DNA of 64,000 nucleotides from an uncultured Chloroflexales bacterium (GTDB lineage Bacteria > Chloroflexota > Chloroflexia > Chloroflexales > Chloroflexaceae): NCBI GenBank assembly GCA_937967405.1, contig CALCJV010000029.1, positions 1 to 64,000 on the forward strand, given 5' to 3'. This document shows, piece by piece, positions 8,484 through 60,256 of this stretch; within the stretch, counting starts at the first letter, position 1; the number at the start of each line of letters is the position of its first letter. The notes under the pieces are model-generated. The model saw only the letters and a program-made list of their open reading frames with translations. It did not search any database and was not told the origin of the DNA. A program made the position numbers and the translations under genes.

Positions 8484-8684
8484 ATGCCATTAGGACCGTG
8501 GGAATTGCTGATTATTTTATTGATTGTGGTTGCCCTGTTTGGCGCAGGCCGGATCGCCGGGATTGGCGGTGCGTTGGGCAGCAGCATCCGTGAATTTAAG
8601 AAAGCTGTCAACGACGACGATACGAAGCCCGCCATCACCACGACTGCCAACGAAACCAGCGAGACCAAAGAACAGAAAGCCTAG
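8484..8684 (+). CDS. tatA: Twin-arginine translocase subunit TatA/TatE family
   Basis: [42 protein letters not shown]. Confidence 0.85.
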
Positions 8685-8693
8685 CGGTACAGT

Positions 8694-8729
8694 GATGTGC
8701 AGTGTGCCGCTGGGGTACACCTGCACATC
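8694..8729. terminator. Stable hairpin downstream of tatA
   Basis: GATGTGCAG...CTGCACATC, 9-bp perfect stem with further pairing inside; no clear T-tract. Confidence 0.4.
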
Positions 8730-8823
8730 GGGCTACCCTACACGCCGAATCGCGTCAGGTGGAATAGCCGAAAGGCTACCACACTGGCGCATTCAGAGTT
8801 GATCAAGAACGTGAGTTGTTGTG

Positions 8824-10140
8824 ATGGGTGAATTTGTAGATCGAGCCAGCATTATTGTCAAATCGGGGCGCGGCGGGCACGGCTCGGCTTCGTTCCGGCG
8901 CGAGAAGTTTATTCCCCGCGGTGGGCCCGATGGCGGCGATGGTGGGCGCGGTGGGCACGTCTATCTCATCGCTGATCCGAGCCTGAATACGCTCTTACCG
9001 TTTCGCTACGATCAGGAGTTCGCAGCCGATGCGGGCGGCAATGGCGGCACCCGCAACCGCACCGGCAAGCAGGGCAAAGATTTGTATGTTCGGGTTCCGC
9101 CCGGCACCCAAGTTCGCACCACGATTAACGGGGTCGCGTATACGGTAGATTTGGAGCGGCCCGGGCAACGCCTGCTAGCCGCTCGCGGCGGGCGCGGCGG
9201 CTTGGGCAATGTCCACTTTGCCACCGCCACGCGCCAAGTGCCGCGCATTGCCGAATTGGGCGAGCCGGGTGAAGAGTTGCACCTTGAACTGGAACTGAAG
9301 TTATTGGCCGATGTGGGCTTAGTGGGCTTCCCCAACGCGGGCAAAAGCACGCTGATTTCGGCGATCTCAGCGGCACGCCCGAAAATCGCCGATTATCCCT
9401 TTACCACGCTACAACCGCATCTCGGTGTAGTCGAGGTGCACGACCAACGCTTTGTTGTCGCCGATATTCCCGGCATCATTGAAGGGGCCCATCGTGGGGT
9501 GGGCTTAGGCCTCGATTTCTTGCGCCACATTGAGCGTACACGGCTGCTGCTCCATATCGTGGATGCAGCAGGTGTGGATGGGCGTGATCCGCTTGAGGAC
9601 TACGAGCGCATCAATACCGAGCTACGCCTGTATCATGCACCGCTTGCCGAACGCCCCCAGCTGGTGGTGCTGAACAAACTTGATCTGCCCGCAGCCCAAG
9701 CCAATCTGCCGCGTTTGCGGACAGCACTGACAGCAGCTGGTGTGCCAGATAAGCTGATCGTTGCGATCTCTGCGGCTACCTCCACGGGGCTAGAGCTGCT
9801 GCTGACGCAGGTGGTGGCCCAGCTCGGCGAACTGCCCGCGCCGCAACGTGATCCCGTCGGGAAACACGAGCCGCCACTGACGTGGGGTGTGCCCGATGGG
9901 GAAGCGGAGCACTATACGGTGGAGCGTGAGGGCGAAGGTTGGCGCGTGCGTGGGGGCAAGATCGAGCGGCTGATCCGCATGACCAACTTTGCCCAACCGG
10001 AAGCTCTCGACCGGATTCAACGGGTGTTGGCAGCAACGGGCATCTCAAATGCCCTATTGCAGGCGGGGGTAGCGGATGGGGATACAGTCTATATTGCCGA
10101 TGCCGAGCTGCAATGGTCGAATACCGAAACATATGGTTAA
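8824..10140 (+). CDS. obg: GTPase Obg/CgtA with C-terminal OCT domain
   Basis: [41 protein letters not shown]...[11 protein letters not shown]...[16 protein letters not shown]. Confidence 0.97.
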
Positions 10141-22111: not shown

Positions 22112-23224
22112 CTAGAACGTAACCGATTGGTCACCGAGCGTCGTATTGGGCCAGATGCGGATCTGTCTATCAAGGCGGTTGTCGGCTCCAATCGTGCAGC
22201 CATCGCTCACGATAGCCCCGCCTACTACCTGTGTGCCCACGCCGATCTGATTGCCAGACCCCACCACGCACGAGCGGAGCACAGCTTTCTCAGCAATCTG
22301 GTTATTGTTCCACAGCACGGCTCCTTCGAGTGTAGCCTCAGCCCCGATGGTGCAGTTGTCGCCAATCACGGTTGGACCAATGATGCTGGCGCGGCGGGCA
22401 ATCCGCACGTTGTTGCCGATCATAACCGGCGGTACGATCTGCACGTCGGCTGCGATTTCGACGTTCTCACCGAGCCATACGCGGGTTTGGGTTTCGTGGC
22501 CGAGAAAGGGGTAGCTAGCTTTGCCAATCAGAATATCGTGGTTGACCTCAATGTAGTTGTGGGGTCGTCCAATGTCGGTCCAGTAAGCCCGTGAAGGATA
22601 GCCGTACATGGGGTCGCCGGTCTGGAGCAGGACGGGGAATAGCCCGCGCTCGAACATGAAGAATTGGCGCGGCGGCACGTAGCGCAGCACCTCCGGCTCG
22701 ATGATGTACGTTCCAGCATTGATCAGGTTGGTGGTGATCTCCTCTGGGCGCGGCTTCTCGGTGAAGCGCAAGATGCGCTGGTCGCGGTCTGTATCCACCA
22801 AACCAAACTGGGTAGGGTCTTCAACGGGGGTTAGCGCAATGGTGGTTTTGCTGCCTTTGCTGCGGTGGAAGGCGAGCATCTCGATCAGGTTCAGGTCGGT
22901 CAGCACATCGCCATTAAAAACAAAAGTGGTGCCATCGAGCAGGTGCTCGACGTACTTGATTGCGCCCGCCGTGCCGAGTGCTTCTGGTTCCTCGCTGATG
23001 TGCAGCTTGATGCCAAGCCGTGAGCCATCGCCGAGCGCGACGCGGAATCGCTCGGCGAGATACTGCACGGCCAGTACCACTTCAGTAATGCCCTGATCGC
23101 GGAGGCGGTGCAGCATATACTCGATGAAGGGGCGATTGGCAATCGGGATCATCGGCTTAGGGGTATTGCATGTCAGCGGGCGCAGGCGCGTGCCTAGCCC
23201 ACCCACCAAAATCACAGCTTTCAT
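22112..23224 (-). CDS. NDP-sugar pyrophosphorylase (mannose-1-phosphate guanylyltransferase-like) with left-handed beta-helix C-terminus
   Basis: MKAVILVGGLGTRLRPLTCNTPKPMIPIANRPFIEYML; hexapeptide repeats. Confidence 0.92.
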   Translation of the reverse strand: MKAVILVGGLGTRLRPLTCNTPKPMIPIANRPFIEYMLHRLRDQGITEVVLAVQYLAERFRVALGDGSRLGIKLHISEEPEALGTAGAIKYVEHLLDGTTFVFNGDVLTDLNLIEMLAFHRSKGSKTTIALTPVEDPTQFGLVDTDRDQRILRFTEKPRPEEITTNLINAGTYIIEPEVLRYVPPRQFFMFERGLFPVLLQTGDPMYGYPSRAYWTDIGRPHNYIEVNHDILIGKASYPFLGHETQTRVWLGENVEIAADVQIVPPVMIGNNVRIARRASIIGPTVIGDNCTIGAEATLEGAVLWNNNQIAEKAVLRSCVVGSGNQIGVGTQVVGGAIVSDGCTIGADNRLDRQIRIWPNTTLGDQSVTF

Positions 23225-23267: not shown

Positions 23268-24566
23268 TCAAATCCGATCTCCTTTTTTCAGATTACACTT
23301 GCGGCAGAGCAGTTGCACATTGCCGACCGAATTGTCTCCACCGCGACTAAATGGAATAACGTGATCAAATTCCAGATACTCGCTAGCCCCGCACTCCGCG
23401 CACTTGCCTTGATCACGGTTCCATACAGCTTTGCGAACATCATGCGGGATGCGCCGCGAGGCTTTGTCGCTCTGGGGCACGAGCATTTGGCGTTTCTCAA
23501 TTCGCACCAGCGCATCAATCACCGCCTCAGTCAATAGGGGATCAGGGGTGGTATATTTGCCTGCGCCACGCTTGACCGATAATTCGAGCTGAATCGTGTG
23601 CCCATCTTGCACCACGCGCAGGATATTCTTGAGCAGGATCGTCCAGCCTTCGCTATTGGCAACGAAGTGCAGCTGTTTGTTGGTGGCAATTATGCGTCCA
23701 CTGAGCGGGATTACATTGGTGCGGGTGGCACGGTGATAGATCGCTGGGGTTTCGAGGTGGGCGATCTCACCCGCATTGAGGTGGATCGAGGGCTTGATCG
23801 TGGGCAGGTGTCCGTGCCGGATGGCGGTGATGTATTTGAGACGGGCAAGGTGCTGGAGCAGGGGTTGGATCTGCTCATTCGGGACACACAGCATCTGTTG
23901 CGCCCTAAGGAAGTTCGTCTCTTCCGCTTCGGTGATCTCGCCATTGGCGTAGGCGAAGGTCAAGGCGCGTTCGAGCATGGCAATCGCATCGGGGCGGATC
24001 GAGGCAATCGCCTCAGCGTAGGGAATGCGTTGCGTCTGGCAGAACTTCTGGAGGGAATGTTGCTCTTCATCTGACAGCACATTATCGCTCGTGGCTTTGA
24101 GGAAGGCAACCCGAAAAAGGGCGAGACCGCTCTTGACTTCCTTCTCGCAGCTGCCGCACCGCTTAGTGCTCTGATTATAGGTGAAGCGGTCAAGGAAGCC
24201 AATCACGCGCTGGCAACGCTGGCACGCACGCTGATTGGGGTGGTTCGTAGGGGGCTGAGCGGGGTTCGTGAGGGTGATAGTGGCGTTCGTGTTGGCGTGG
24301 GCAGGTGGCGGGATCGGCACGTTCATAGCTTGCAAAGCCTTGGCAGCTTGTTGCCCATAGTTTGTCGTCGGGTTGAGCTGGTAGGCTTGCTCGGCGCACT
24401 GGCGTTTGGTGGCGAGGTCGGCACTACTTGCACCGAGCCATAGCCACGCCACTTGACTGGTGTTGTCGAGGTGAAGGGCCTGCTGAAATAGGCGTTGCGC
24501 GGTGGCTTTGTCGCCAGCGTTAAAAGCAGCAATCCCACGCTCAACCAGTTCCCGTATACTCTCCAT
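23268..24566 (-). CDS. Multi-domain HNH endonuclease (TPR-like + Zn-ribbon + TerB-like + PH/GRAM-like + HNH)
   Basis: MESIRELVERGIAAFNAGDKATAQRLFQQALHL...AWLWLGA; CQRCQ...CGSC; SDEEQHSLQKFC...ANGEITEAEE; RRIPHDVRKAVWNRDQGKCAECGASEYLEFDHVIPFSRGGDNSVGNVQLLCRKCNLKKGD. Confidence 0.85.
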   Translation of the reverse strand: MESIRELVERGIAAFNAGDKATAQRLFQQALHLDNTSQVAWLWLGASSADLATKRQCAEQAYQLNPTTNYGQQAAKALQAMNVPIPPPAHANTNATITLTNPAQPPTNHPNQRACQRCQRVIGFLDRFTYNQSTKRCGSCEKEVKSGLALFRVAFLKATSDNVLSDEEQHSLQKFCQTQRIPYAEAIASIRPDAIAMLERALTFAYANGEITEAEETNFLRAQQMLCVPNEQIQPLLQHLARLKYITAIRHGHLPTIKPSIHLNAGEIAHLETPAIYHRATRTNVIPLSGRIIATNKQLHFVANSEGWTILLKNILRVVQDGHTIQLELSVKRGAGKYTTPDPLLTEAVIDALVRIEKRQMLVPQSDKASRRIPHDVRKAVWNRDQGKCAECGASEYLEFDHVIPFSRGGDNSVGNVQLLCRKCNLKKGDRI

Positions 24567-24610
24567 CGCTGTTCCCCTTTGTGGATTACGTCCTAGACTA
24601 TTGTTTAGGG

Positions 24611-25573
24611 TTATGCTTGTGCGTCTGCTACGCGCCCGCGCCAATCTTCCAGAATATCGCGCATTGTCTGCTCAATCGGAATCTGCGGCTGCCAGCCCGT
24701 GAGCATGCGGAAGGCGGTGGCATCGCAGAAGACAACGGGAATGTTGACGGGGCGCATACGTTCGGGGTCAGGCTCTATCGCAAAGCGAGCGGTGCTAGCC
24801 GCAGCCAGCAGATCGAGCAGGCTTCGGATGCTGCGTGGTTGCCCAGAGCCGAGATTGTAGATTGCACCGGTGGGGGCATGCGTGATTGCCAATGCATAGG
24901 CGGCCACCATATCACGCACATCGGTGAAATCACGTTGCCCTTCAAGGTTGCCCACCTTGAGGACAGGCTCCTGCAAGCCGCGTTCGATGCGGGCGATCTG
25001 ATGCGCGAAGGCTCCGGTCACAAACCGGTCTGTCTGGCGTGGGCCAATGTGGTTGAAGGGGCGCACAATTACGACATCGAGGGCGTGGCTTCGGTGATAT
25101 TGCAAGCCGAGCAGGGTTTGGGCGGCTTTGCTCACGCCATAGGGGCTAGCCGGGCGGAGCGGGGTGGCTTCGGTGAGCGGCAGGTCGGCGGGCGTAATCA
25201 TACCATACTCTTCGTTCGAGCCAGTGATGAGCAGGCGGCACGGTTTGCCCAGCGTAAGCATCGCTTGAATAATATGTAACGTAGCGAGGATATTGGTTTG
25301 CAGTGTTCCTGCCGGATCACGGAACGATTCGGGCACGAAAGTTTGCCCAGCGAGATGCACGATCACATCTGGCGCAGCGGTATGGATTGCTATACGGGTT
25401 TGTTCAGCATTACACAAATCTGCTTGATATACCATTACGTGCTCGCGCAGCGACGGCAAGCTGAGCGTGCGTGCACGGCTGATTCCTGTTACCTGTATGG
25501 TCTGGGTGGCCAGCAGATACTCCGCCAAATGGCCGCCCACGAACCCATTGATACCGGTAATAAGTATGTGCAT
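24611..25573 (-). CDS. NAD-dependent epimerase/dehydratase (GDP-mannose dehydratase/reductase-like SDR)
   Basis: MHILITGINGFVGGHLAEYL; YGVSKAAQTLL (YxxxK). Confidence 0.9.
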   Translation of the reverse strand: MHILITGINGFVGGHLAEYLLATQTIQVTGISRARTLSLPSLREHVMVYQADLCNAEQTRIAIHTAAPDVIVHLAGQTFVPESFRDPAGTLQTNILATLHIIQAMLTLGKPCRLLITGSNEEYGMITPADLPLTEATPLRPASPYGVSKAAQTLLGLQYHRSHALDVVIVRPFNHIGPRQTDRFVTGAFAHQIARIERGLQEPVLKVGNLEGQRDFTDVRDMVAAYALAITHAPTGAIYNLGSGQPRSIRSLLDLLAAASTARFAIEPDPERMRPVNIPVVFCDATAFRMLTGWQPQIPIEQTMRDILEDWRGRVADAQA

Positions 25574-25656
25574 AACAGGCATACTATACCCCAAGCATTG
25601 CTTCTGTGCAAGTGGGGTGTACCGACAATCAATATCATTGAAAATTCAATAATTGC

Positions 25657-25707: not shown

Positions 25708-25844
25708 AGAATCACACTAAATTTATTCTGCCTCATTGCAGTTGTCTGCTGCATCCCCTGCACCAAACATCGGCTAAGGCACAGGGTTCGTGCATTGTTC
25801 GGGTGGATGACAGACAAAGTGTCACCTTAGTAAGGAAGTGCCAG

Positions 25845-26792
25845 ATGGCAACACAAGGGTTCCTGACACAATTTTCGGATGTTCCGATCTACAATACAAA
25901 AGCGGTTGCCCAAGAAACGGGCGTGCCTGCGGATACCTTCCGGGCATGGGAACGCCGCTATGGTGTGCCGCGCCCGCACCGTACCGAAGGTGGGCATCGG
26001 CTCTACTCCGAGCGTGACATTGCGGTGATCCGCTGGTTGCGGGATCGCACGGCGGAAGGGATGACGATCAGCCAAGCTGTAGCCTTGATGGTCAGCGGCA
26101 GCGACTCCAACCTCGCGTGGCTCGATACAGCGGTAGATACTGAACCGCATAGCTGGGAGCGGCTGAATAGTCAATTGCTGGCCGCGTTGCTGGATTACGA
26201 CGAACGGCGGGCGGAGCGCATCATGGGTGAGGCGTTTGCCCTCTACCCACTCGATGATGTGTTCTCCAAGCTGATCCAGCCAACGATGACCGAGATCGGT
26301 GAGCAGTGGCATCAAGGCAAGATTACGGTGACGGTCGAGCATTTTGCGACGCAGTTTGTGCGCCGCAAGCTGTCCAGCATTCTGAATACCTACAGCATTA
26401 CCGAAGGGCGCGGCTTGCTCGTGGTGGGCTGTGCCCCCTCCGAACAGCATGATCTCGGTGCGCTGCTGCTGGCAGTGGCACTGGTGCGGCACGGCTGGCA
26501 GGTGATCTACCTTGGTCCACAAGTGCCGCTCAAAGACTTGCTCGATACGATCCAGCGTATCCAGCCGGATATGGTCTGCCTCTCGGCTTCAACGATAGAA
26601 ACAGCCCTAGAGCTAGTCGAGATTGGCAAAGTGATTACGCGGCTTACGCCACCCGCGCCCTACTTTGGCTTTGGCGGGCGAGCATTTACGGTGAACGGGA
26701 TGCTCAAGCATAAGGTGCCCGGTTTGTATCTCGGTGATACGGCTCAAGAAGGGATTGACGTAATCGCCGATACGCTCAACAACGGCAAGTAA
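25845..26792 (+). CDS. carH: MerR-family regulator with cobalamin-binding domain (CarH/LitR-type photoreceptor)
   Basis: MerR HTH FRAWERRYGVPRPHRTEGGHRLYSE; W-x9-EH (QWHQGKITVTVEHFAT); ExHxLG (SEQHDLGALLLA). Confidence 0.85.
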   Translation: MATQGFLTQFSDVPIYNTKAVAQETGVPADTFRAWERRYGVPRPHRTEGGHRLYSERDIAVIRWLRDRTAEGMTISQAVALMVSGSDSNLAWLDTAVDTEPHSWERLNSQLLAALLDYDERRAERIMGEAFALYPLDDVFSKLIQPTMTEIGEQWHQGKITVTVEHFATQFVRRKLSSILNTYSITEGRGLLVVGCAPSEQHDLGALLLAVALVRHGWQVIYLGPQVPLKDLLDTIQRIQPDMVCLSASTIETALELVEIGKVITRLTPPAPYFGFGGRAFTVNGMLKHKVPGLYLGDTAQEGIDVIADTLNNGK

Positions 26793-28696: not shown

Positions 28697-30832
28697 ATGA
28701 GCGACGAGAATCAGTCAGCGAGTACAAACCTCGATGAACAGACTGCCGAGCTTGTGCGGCAGGGGGTGGATGCACTGAAATCGGGCAATACGTTGGTTGC
28801 CAGAGCATTGCTCTCGGAAGTAGTCCGGATCGCACCGGGCTATCAGGATGCGTGGCTGTGGCTGAGTGATCTCGCCGAGAGTGAAGCCGAACGTGAGGTG
28901 CATCTACGTCGGGCTATCGAGATTGATCCGCATAGCCCATCTGGGCAGATTGCCCGCCGCAAGCTGGATCAGTTGCTTGCCGAGGCGCACGCCGTGCCGC
29001 CGCCCACCGAGACCTTGCGCCCACAAACGGGACGGATCGCCGATGCTGATGCATTTGATGAGCCGGAGCAGAAGTGGTGGCAGAAGCTCACCCCGATCCA
29101 GCTCGGCCTCATTGGGCTTTCGACCCTCGCCTTGCTGGCCTTGTGTGGCATTCTCGGCATGAACCTGTTCGGGACGTTCTTTGGGCGTGGGCAACCAACC
29201 CCACCGCCGCCACCGCCCATTTCTGTATCGGCTACCGAGATTGTGGTGCGGCTCCAGCAAAACGGAGCTGAAGCGGCCGATGCCCGTCCCGCCGTTCCCG
29301 AAGATTTCGGTGGACTGACCCCGCGCTGCCTCGACAATTCACAACGCTTCTACACGCCGTCGCTGGGCTTTCCGGCGGGCGGGATTGTGCTGGTCTGCCC
29401 TACGGCGAATGAAGCCCAACTTGCTAAAGCCGAATTTGATGCGCTAGGAGTGCGTGATCCTGCACGGCGTTCGTGGACGTACCTGAACAACAACGTCTTC
29501 TTGCAGGTAGATGGCCGCTTGCCACCTGAAGCATCTGTGCGCTACGAGCAAGTGATTGCTTCCCTCAGTGGGGGTTCGATCCCGCCGGTTGTCCCCCCAA
29601 CTCCGTCACCGCCAAGCCAAGTAGTGGCTACACCACTGCCGTTCTCCGCCTTTGAGGTATACAACCGCATTGCCGCAACCGGAGTAGATGTGGCCAACCC
29701 ACGTGCGGCCGTACCCGAAGATTTCGGTGCAATTCCGCCCCGTTGTCTTAATAACAGCGTGCGCTACTTCATTCCCTCGCTGGGCGATCCGGCGGGCGGG
29801 ATCATCACGACGTGTCCGACGGCGGCCGAAGCTGAAGCCCTCAAAAATGCCTACGATCAACAGAGTGTGGCCAACCCACTTGCTGCATCGTGGCGGTTCA
29901 TTAATAACAACATCTTCGTGCAAGCCGATGGCCGCCTGCCCGCCAACCAAGCCAACAAATTCGCGGAAGTGGTCGCGGCTCTCAGCACCGGGCAAGCCGT
30001 CGCGCCGTTGCCCCCCACGCCCCCCCCGCCACCGCCAGATGCCACGCCAATCCCGATCTCGGCGTTTGACGTATTCAACCGCGTGGCGGCAGCAGGGGTT
30101 GAAGTGACGGAGCCGCGTGGGGCAGTGCCAGAGGACTTCGGCGCAATTCAGGCCCGCTGCCTCGAAAATAGCGTGCGCTATTTCACCCCATCACTCGGCT
30201 TCCCAGCTGGCGGGGTGATTGTCACCTGCTCGAATGCGGGTGATGCCCAAGCCCTGAAAGCCGACTATGATCGTCAGAGTGCAGCTAACCCGGGGGCGGC
30301 TTCGTGGACGTTTATTAACAATAACGTCTTTGCCCAAGCTGATGGGCGCATGCCCCAAAATCAGGCCCAGAAGTTCCAAGAAGTCATTGCCTCGCTCAGC
30401 ACCGGCGCACCCGTCCAGCCTCTGCCACCGACGGCCGTGCCGCCAACGGCAACGCAACCGGTTGAAGAGATTACGGTGATTCCCATCCCACCGACGAATA
30501 CGCCTGCACCGCCGCCCCCCACCGATACGCCTCCACCGCCGCCCCCAACGGACGTGCCGCCGCCGCCCCCTACCGATACACCTGCACCGCCGCCCCCCAC
30601 CGATACGCCTGCACCGCCGCCCCCGACGGACGTGCCGCCAACCAACACTCCGTTGCCAACCATCGTGATTCCGCTACCGGCAACGGCGACCCCGACGATT
30701 ACACCGACAATGATCCTACCCTATCCGCCGATCATCACGCCACTGCCGGGTGAGTTGCCCGCACCCTCGCCACGTACCAATGCGGCGCCGTTGCCCGGCA
30801 GCTTGAGCAACGTGGCGATCAAAGAAGAGTAG
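28697..30832 (+). CDS. TPR-like / TM / triple-repeat extracytoplasmic protein with Pro-Thr-rich tail
   Basis: AWLWLSDLAESEAEREVHLRRAIEIDP N-terminus, TM near aa 150, then three copies of ...VPEDFGxxxPRCLxNSxRxxxPSLGxPAGG.... Confidence 0.88.
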   Translation: MSDENQSASTNLDEQTAELVRQGVDALKSGNTLVARALLSEVVRIAPGYQDAWLWLSDLAESEAEREVHLRRAIEIDPHSPSGQIARRKLDQLLAEAHAVPPPTETLRPQTGRIADADAFDEPEQKWWQKLTPIQLGLIGLSTLALLALCGILGMNLFGTFFGRGQPTPPPPPPISVSATEIVVRLQQNGAEAADARPAVPEDFGGLTPRCLDNSQRFYTPSLGFPAGGIVLVCPTANEAQLAKAEFDALGVRDPARRSWTYLNNNVFLQVDGRLPPEASVRYEQVIASLSGGSIPPVVPPTPSPPSQVVATPLPFSAFEVYNRIAATGVDVANPRAAVPEDFGAIPPRCLNNSVRYFIPSLGDPAGGIITTCPTAAEAEALKNAYDQQSVANPLAASWRFINNNIFVQADGRLPANQANKFAEVVAALSTGQAVAPLPPTPPPPPPDATPIPISAFDVFNRVAAAGVEVTEPRGAVPEDFGAIQARCLENSVRYFTPSLGFPAGGVIVTCSNAGDAQALKADYDRQSAANPGAASWTFINNNVFAQADGRMPQNQAQKFQEVIASLSTGAPVQPLPPTAVPPTATQPVEEITVIPIPPTNTPAPPPPTDTPPPPPPTDVPPPPPTDTPAPPPPTDTPAPPPPTDVPPTNTPLPTIVIPLPATATPTITPTMILPYPPIITPLPGELPAPSPRTNAAPLPGSLSNVAIKEE
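30492..30650 (+). repeat. Pro/Thr/Asp low-complexity repeat tract (PPPTDTP/PPPTDVP)
   Basis: Imperfect tandem repeats of ccgccccccaccgatacgcctgca. Confidence 0.85.
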
Positions 30833-58897: not shown

Positions 58898-60256
58898 ATG
58901 ACCGACCCCGATAGCATTTTACAACTGGGGATCGAAGCGGCAAAAGAAGGTAATAATCGTGATGCGCGGGAACTGTTTCGCTTGCTTGTGAAAGAAGACC
59001 CGTGTAACGCTCGTGGCTGGCTATGGTTGGCAGGTGTGGCCGAGACCAACGAAGAACGCATCAACGCGCTGCGGCAGGTGTATGCGTTAGAACCAGATAA
59101 CCAGCTTGCACGCGATGGCTTGCGTGCGCTTGGCGTAGATATAGAGGCTGAGGTAACCCCTGCCCGTGTTCCGGCTGCGCCGCCACCACCGCCACCGGCC
59201 GCGCCGCCACCACCGCCATCAACCACGCCTACACCTGCACCAGCTGCGGCCGACACCGATTTCGATGATCCCTTTGCTGAGCTAGATAGCCTCTCAGATG
59301 CGTTTGAGCAGGACCCGGGTGCAGTCCGCCGCGAAGATGCTGTCGCTTCCCCTAACCTTACTCCGCGTGATGAATCTAAAGCCGCCGAAGCCAGTGCTGT
59401 GGCAAGTAGCCGCCCGCGCACCCTCAGCAGTACCAGTACCAAGAAAGATAGCAGTAGTTCGCGCAAGACGAGCAATCTGAGTAGTTCATCCAAGAAAGAT
59501 GCTGCACGGAGTAGCACGGCGAGTTCAAGCCGCACAGCCAATATCCCCAACAAAACCAACAATGATATTCGCAAGCATAAATATTACCCGCTCCTGCTGT
59601 TTCTCACAGCGATGGTTGTGCTGTGTGGAGCCTTCGCCGTCTTCGATGGACCCGGACGGATTCGCGCCCTATTCGGTGGTGGGCAGCAAATAGCACAACA
59701 ACCCCAGCCAGAGCCGCAGCCGCCGGTAGACCCGAACGCCCCCCAGCCGGAGCCGCAGCCGCCAGTGGAACCGAACACCCCACCGCCAGCCCAGCCCGAC
59801 CAACCCGCACCGCTTCCGCCCGTTGGCGATCCGGCTACGGCGAATCCGAGCCTGAACAATCCAAATACGATCCTACAGTCGAATGGGTGGTTCTACAACT
59901 TCCCGACAGCCACGTATGCCGTGCGTTTGCCCTCACCTCTCGGTGGTTTGGATGCACGCGGGCGGTTTGCACTCGTGCTGACTTTCGTCTCAAACGGGAC
60001 CGGGCAGGATCAACCCTTGCCTGCCGATTTCTTCGTGCTACGCGATGCACAAGGGCGGGTCTACTTCCCATCCCCCGAAGCCTCTGCCGCCTATCGGGCG
60101 AGTGGTGGCGTAGCCGATATTAGCTTAGGCGATGTGATCCCAGCCGACGGGGTAACCCGTAGTGTCCCCCTCGTCTTTGACACTGCGCCGGACGCAAGCG
60201 GCTTGCTCTTCTTTGCACCCAGCAATCCCGATCAGGGGTGGTTGGTATTGCCATAG
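58898..60256 (+). CDS. TPR-like / Pro-rich / TM / DUF4352-like protein (paralog 1)
   Basis: ILQLGIEAAKEGNNRDARELFRLLVKEDPCNARGWLWLAGVAETNEERINALRQVYALEPDN; C-terminal domain shared with next gene. Confidence 0.82.
   Translation: MTDPDSILQLGIEAAKEGNNRDARELFRLLVKEDPCNARGWLWLAGVAETNEERINALRQVYALEPDNQLARDGLRALGVDIEAEVTPARVPAAPPPPPPAAPPPPPSTTPTPAPAAADTDFDDPFAELDSLSDAFEQDPGAVRREDAVASPNLTPRDESKAAEASAVASSRPRTLSSTSTKKDSSSSRKTSNLSSSSKKDAARSSTASSSRTANIPNKTNNDIRKHKYYPLLLFLTAMVVLCGAFAVFDGPGRIRALFGGGQQIAQQPQPEPQPPVDPNAPQPEPQPPVEPNTPPPAQPDQPAPLPPVGDPATANPSLNNPNTILQSNGWFYNFPTATYAVRLPSPLGGLDARGRFALVLTFVSNGTGQDQPLPADFFVLRDAQGRVYFPSPEASAAYRASGGVADISLGDVIPADGVTRSVPLVFDTAPDASGLLFFAPSNPDQGWLVLP

Follow-up and report, generated by a model that had tools for sequence, protein, structure and literature searches.

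The gene and its predicted domains

The window, the whole 64,000-nucleotide stretch of DNA analysed here, carries on its minus strand a gene for a 432-residue protein between two sugar-nucleotide genes. The sequence-only reading had proposed that the open reading frame at 23268-24566 encodes a protein of about 432 residues with five domains, and all five domain calls are supported by one or more of Pfam, an alignment of 11 sequences (A1), the relatives, AlphaFold2 and Foldseek. The features of the locus are:

22112-23224, minus strand: downstream neighbour, NDP-sugar nucleotidyltransferase with hexapeptide repeats (Pfam)
23268-24566, minus strand, stop codon included: gene for the 432-residue TPR, C4 ribbon, TerB-like, PH-like and HNH protein (open reading frame; ortholog L009)
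23271-23459, minus strand: HNH nuclease domain, residues 370-432 (PF01844, E=1e-12; conserved H402, N416 and four cysteines)
23493-23783, minus strand: PH/GRAM-like domain, residues 262-358 (seven strands and a helix in the model; PH-like Foldseek matches)
23817-24134, minus strand: TerB-like helical domain, residues 145-250, or about 138-250 (six model helices; relatives match PF05099)
24138-24230, minus strand: C4 zinc-ribbon-like segment, residues 113-143 (conserved C115, C118, C137 and C140)
24327-24557, minus strand: N-terminal TPR region, residues 4-80 (TPR_2, E=2.8e-4; low-confidence helices in the AlphaFold2 model)
24573-24578, minus strand: probable ribosome-binding site AGGGG (sequence 5' of the ATG)
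24611-25594, minus strand: upstream neighbour, NAD-dependent sugar epimerase/dehydratase (Pfam; conserved partner of the nucleotidyltransferase across the bacterial family)

Translation starts at the ATG at 24566, with the AGGGG 8-12 bases 5' of it. By its sequence the C-terminal domain is certainly an HNH domain. Residues 389-431 match PF01844 with 48.4 bits (E=1e-12) against a curated cut-off of 21.4, and its metal-binding and catalytic residues C389, C392, H402, N416, C421 and C424 are invariant in A1, as are C115, C118, C137 and C140 of the ribbon. The HNH domain would probably act as a DNase.

AlphaFold2 predicts with high confidence that residues 262-358 form seven strands and a C-terminal helix, the topology of the PH/GRAM fold, in which such a helix caps a barrel of seven strands. 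The Pfam scan of the window protein gave no PH-type match; bPH_3, YcxB and GRAM weakly match its relatives. Foldseek ranked the PH-like domain of Lam6 first for this region (E=1.9e-5), and most of the matches that followed were PH/GRAM proteins. As a multidomain model was compared, the TM-scores were low, and we therefore relied on topology and on the concordance of the matches.

A TerB-like identity for the preceding helical segment is supported through the relatives. The window protein matches Pfam TerB (PF05099) with E=0.012 and 16.4 bits, the curated cut-off being 24.4, and relatives aligned over the same segment exceed that cut-off (G556, 4.7e-14; G518, 2e-9; L047, 1.3e-8). In G556 and G518, both of which have several TerB-like units in tandem, the TerB segment is spanned by the family profile, which also matches a solved tellurite-resistance protein of COG3793, 2ou3 (E=0.02). 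Foldseek found no significant match for the TerB part.

At the N-terminus, the TPR_2 match lies under the Pfam cut-off. Several other, unrelated proteins of this genome begin with a comparable TPR module; they are encoded in the window at 28697-30832 and 58898-60256 and elsewhere at L002, L004, L006 and L008.

The ortholog in the same genus is 81% identical to the window protein (dN 0.11, dS 0.67, dN/dS about 0.16), and the 432-residue architecture is therefore no chance product. The HNH domain is the most conserved between the two (92%) and the linker, ribbon and TerB segments the least; the two flanking genes evolve more slowly (dN 0.018 and 0.047 in the same-genus comparison). A nuclease that is retained while the sensing part diverges faster than the neighbouring genes would fit a conflict gene, without proving it. 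The ribbon-TerB-PH-HNH core is a real and rare family under purifying selection, of which the window copy is intact.

A rare family with exchangeable ends

Of 82 genomes of the order, 6 carry a family member, and 8 of 158 genomes of the class carry a full-length one. Members also occur in 3 of 297 genomes from the phylum that includes a Desulfatirhabdium-assigned MAG. Two Deinococcus replicons and eight viral-contig loci also carry them, one of the viral-contig loci sharing its protein with G042, a genome of the same order. The range of the family is Chloroflexota, Deinococcus, the Desulfatirhabdium-assigned MAG and viral or prophage contigs.

The TPR N-terminus of the window protein recurs in G022 and G019, with a TPR-like one in G445. 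Five relatives (L010, L017, L018, L044 and L048) begin with TerD instead. Scans of four of them gave TerD matches with E values between 2e-26 and 2e-37, and for the protein of D. radiophilus the assignment comes from the record annotation. TerB repeats form the N-terminus in G556, G518 and L047, a hydrophobic segment is found there in L049, and some relatives have nothing in this position. At the other end, a MTES_1575/DUF559 nuclease replaces HNH behind the ribbon-TerB-PH-like segment of G352 (L038, G352:C2:2380000-2396690, at 8640-9857 on the minus strand), and no nuclease domain is visible in the relative from G005. The family profile has twenty matches in the 3.4-Mb Bdellovibrionales MAG G505 (the genome of L011), nearly all to the HNH part only; this MAG has many HNH genes.

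The core of the window copy is 54% identical to that of the Desulfatirhabdium MAG copy, which suggests, without proving it, gene transfer between phyla; we put it no more strongly because support for the tree branches near the window copy is weak. G556 was omitted from the second tree, and the Desulfatirhabdium naming of the MAG contig was accepted as given.

Known relatives and genomic surroundings

Plasmids and islands widely carry Ter genes. The D. radiodurans member of the family, WP_162177623.1, lies near bphP on a 412-kb replicon. It has the ribbon-TerB-PH-HNH core in common with the window protein (44% identity over residues 88-432), but its N-terminus is TerD where that of the window protein is TPR. 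It is apparently DRA0057, going by the gene order near bphP and not by a locus tag. In DRA0057 an endonuclease domain is joined to one of the TerDEXZ/CABP family, and the protein has been discussed with the stress response (PMC10614293). The window protein is a variant of this already-known TerD-endonuclease architecture and is not wholly new.

The sequence-only reading had recognised no described system in this combination of domains. That holds for the TPR version and for the ribbon-TerB-PH-HNH core as such, neither of which we found described in a limited search of the literature, and has to be given up as far as the core is common to the D. radiodurans TerD-endonuclease. The same limited search found no experiment on any family member. 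In PADLOC no model matches the whole window protein, and a known PADLOC system was rejected as its identity. The PADLOC matches are to the HNH region and, in part, to PDC-S48, a phage-defence candidate for which the library gives no function. The PDC-S48 match is limited to the TerB segment (residues 148-253, E=4.1e-4; 7.7e-13 in one relative).

TerB and TerD may be the parts with which the Ter system senses signals (PMC7824862), and Ter systems have been considered threat-sensing or tied to an anti-phage function (PMC7824862, PMC3710099). The window protein would have a TerB-like domain in common with these tellurite/stress systems, and some of its relatives are fused to TerD and lie within Ter clusters. 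In contrast, the window genome (88% complete) has no TerD gene, no Pfam TerB and no Ter operon adjoining the HNH gene. As the TerD gene is absent, there is no Ter pathway for the window protein to join. TerD is likewise absent from 11 of the 12 other genomes with relatives.

The D. radiophilus copy opens a Ter cluster with three more TerD genes, a VWA gene and a DUF475 gene; ATP-grasp, phosphoribosyltransferase and HAD genes run divergently from it. Behind the copy of the Desulfatirhabdium MAG (L010) comes a TerF-like vWA gene (3.6e-67), and behind that of G042 come a Z1 helicase gene (PADLOC Helicase_II, 4.7e-86) and, in convergent orientation, a C5 DNA methylase gene. At the G042 locus (L033, 5005-9459) methylase, helicase and family gene lie abreast with a NUMOD3-HNH gene adjoining, possibly as an R-M-type locus. 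Two copies, L048 and L049, lie amid phage head, tail, lysozyme or antirepressor genes. The prophage-borne, TerD-bearing gene of L048 (7362-8891) runs opposite to the surrounding tail genes in the manner of a moron, and the prophage-borne relative of L049 (7812-8855) has a phage DNA methyltransferase close by. The genes next to most Chloroflexota copies are metabolic or unassigned. G445, also of the Chloroflexota, has a Ter cluster (L109, G445:C498) that comprises several TerD genes, a protein-kinase-like gene and a P-type ATPase, the family member of that genome being on a separate contig.

When 75 neighbour proteins from 17 loci were scanned with PADLOC, the methylase and helicase of G042 were the assignable strong matches among the 25 of 58 families listed. 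Enrichment in defence islands around homologs did not clearly emerge, with one clear case in the 17 loci for the families listed. Homologs are not confined to housekeeping contexts: that in the window comes from an insertion. The nucleotidyltransferase is present in 40 of 41 genomes of the bacterial family, and in all 28 other family genomes with the locus retrieved it is adjacent to the epimerase (gaps below 400 bases) without the HNH gene. Even G019, with its own relative on another contig, has the empty site. The HNH gene was therefore most simply gained in this genus and its sugar-gene context is incidental.

A proposed sensor-gated nuclease and its alternatives

The best explanation of the window protein, to which we give a probability of about 0.5, is a stand-alone DNase of the stress or phage-conflict kind, related to the Ter systems, whose HNH domain would be gated by a sensor. 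The TerB-like and PH-like middle would sense a signal, which may be a metal, a membrane change or a small ligand, and the N-terminal TPR would bind a partner in the position held by TerD in relatives. The HNH domain would then cleave DNA, either that of an invader or the cell's own as a suicide response. We infer the DNase activity and a possible anti-phage activity, and likewise what the signal might be and whether foreign or own DNA would be the target. A small protein that joins a TerB sensor to a nuclease would permit a direct test of the signal sensed and of whether DNA is cleaved in response.

The conserved HNH domain, the low dN, the swapped N-terminal and nuclease modules, the patchy distribution and the gain inside a conserved operon all support a gated DNase, as do the Ter, prophage or methylase genes that surround some relatives. 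The missing TerD gene, in the window genome and in 11 of 12 others, the mostly metabolic or unassigned contexts in Chloroflexota and the lack of a PADLOC model for the whole protein speak against it. The original proposal, a sensor joined to a nuclease in a stress or phage-conflict system, is plausible and draws support from the relatives found in Ter operons, in prophages and next to a helicase and methylase of R-M type. Because defence islands are not clearly enriched around the relatives, we use the label 'defence effector' for the window protein as a hypothesis.

More tentatively, the core may define an unrecognised family of one-gene membrane- or ligand-sensing DNases, with swapped sensor ends (TerD, TPR or TerB repeats) and nuclease ends (HNH or DUF559-type), each of which would act against phages as a single protein and without the Ter operon.

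The main rival to a sensor-gated DNase, though in our view rather unlikely, is a stress-response enzyme in which the TerB and PH parts sense metal, oxidative or radiation stress and HNH processes the cell's own damaged DNA, with no anti-phage role. Named relatives in radiation-resistant Deinococcus, one of them within a full Ter operon, would suit such an enzyme, as would the discussion of the D. radiodurans TerD-endonuclease in terms of stress response (PMC10614293). Against it are the two prophage-borne relatives and the one that adjoins an R-M-type helicase and methylase, and the rarity and single-gene gain are unlike a core repair function.

The clean gain of one gene between two conserved genes, with relatives inside prophages and close to a NUMOD3-HNH gene, might also be the mark of a selfish HNH gene of the homing type, which would spread by cleaving sites that lack it and whose accessory domains would be borrowed. 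We think this improbable: the relatives occupy unrelated sites with no common target, some copies lie within Ter clusters, and the TerB-PH part is retained even where the nuclease fold differs, as in G352. Least probable is a partner or regulator of the surrounding sugar-nucleotide operon. The shared strand, the 44-45 bases to each neighbour and a gene order that the two genomes of the genus have in common suggest such a role; it was rejected on the site that is empty in 28 of 28 other family genomes, G019 included, and on the remaining relatives, which are not adjacent to these sugar genes.

Near the sugar genes, at 25803-26792, the window also carries a gene for a MerR-type regulator with B12-binding domains, possibly a light or cobalamin sensor.
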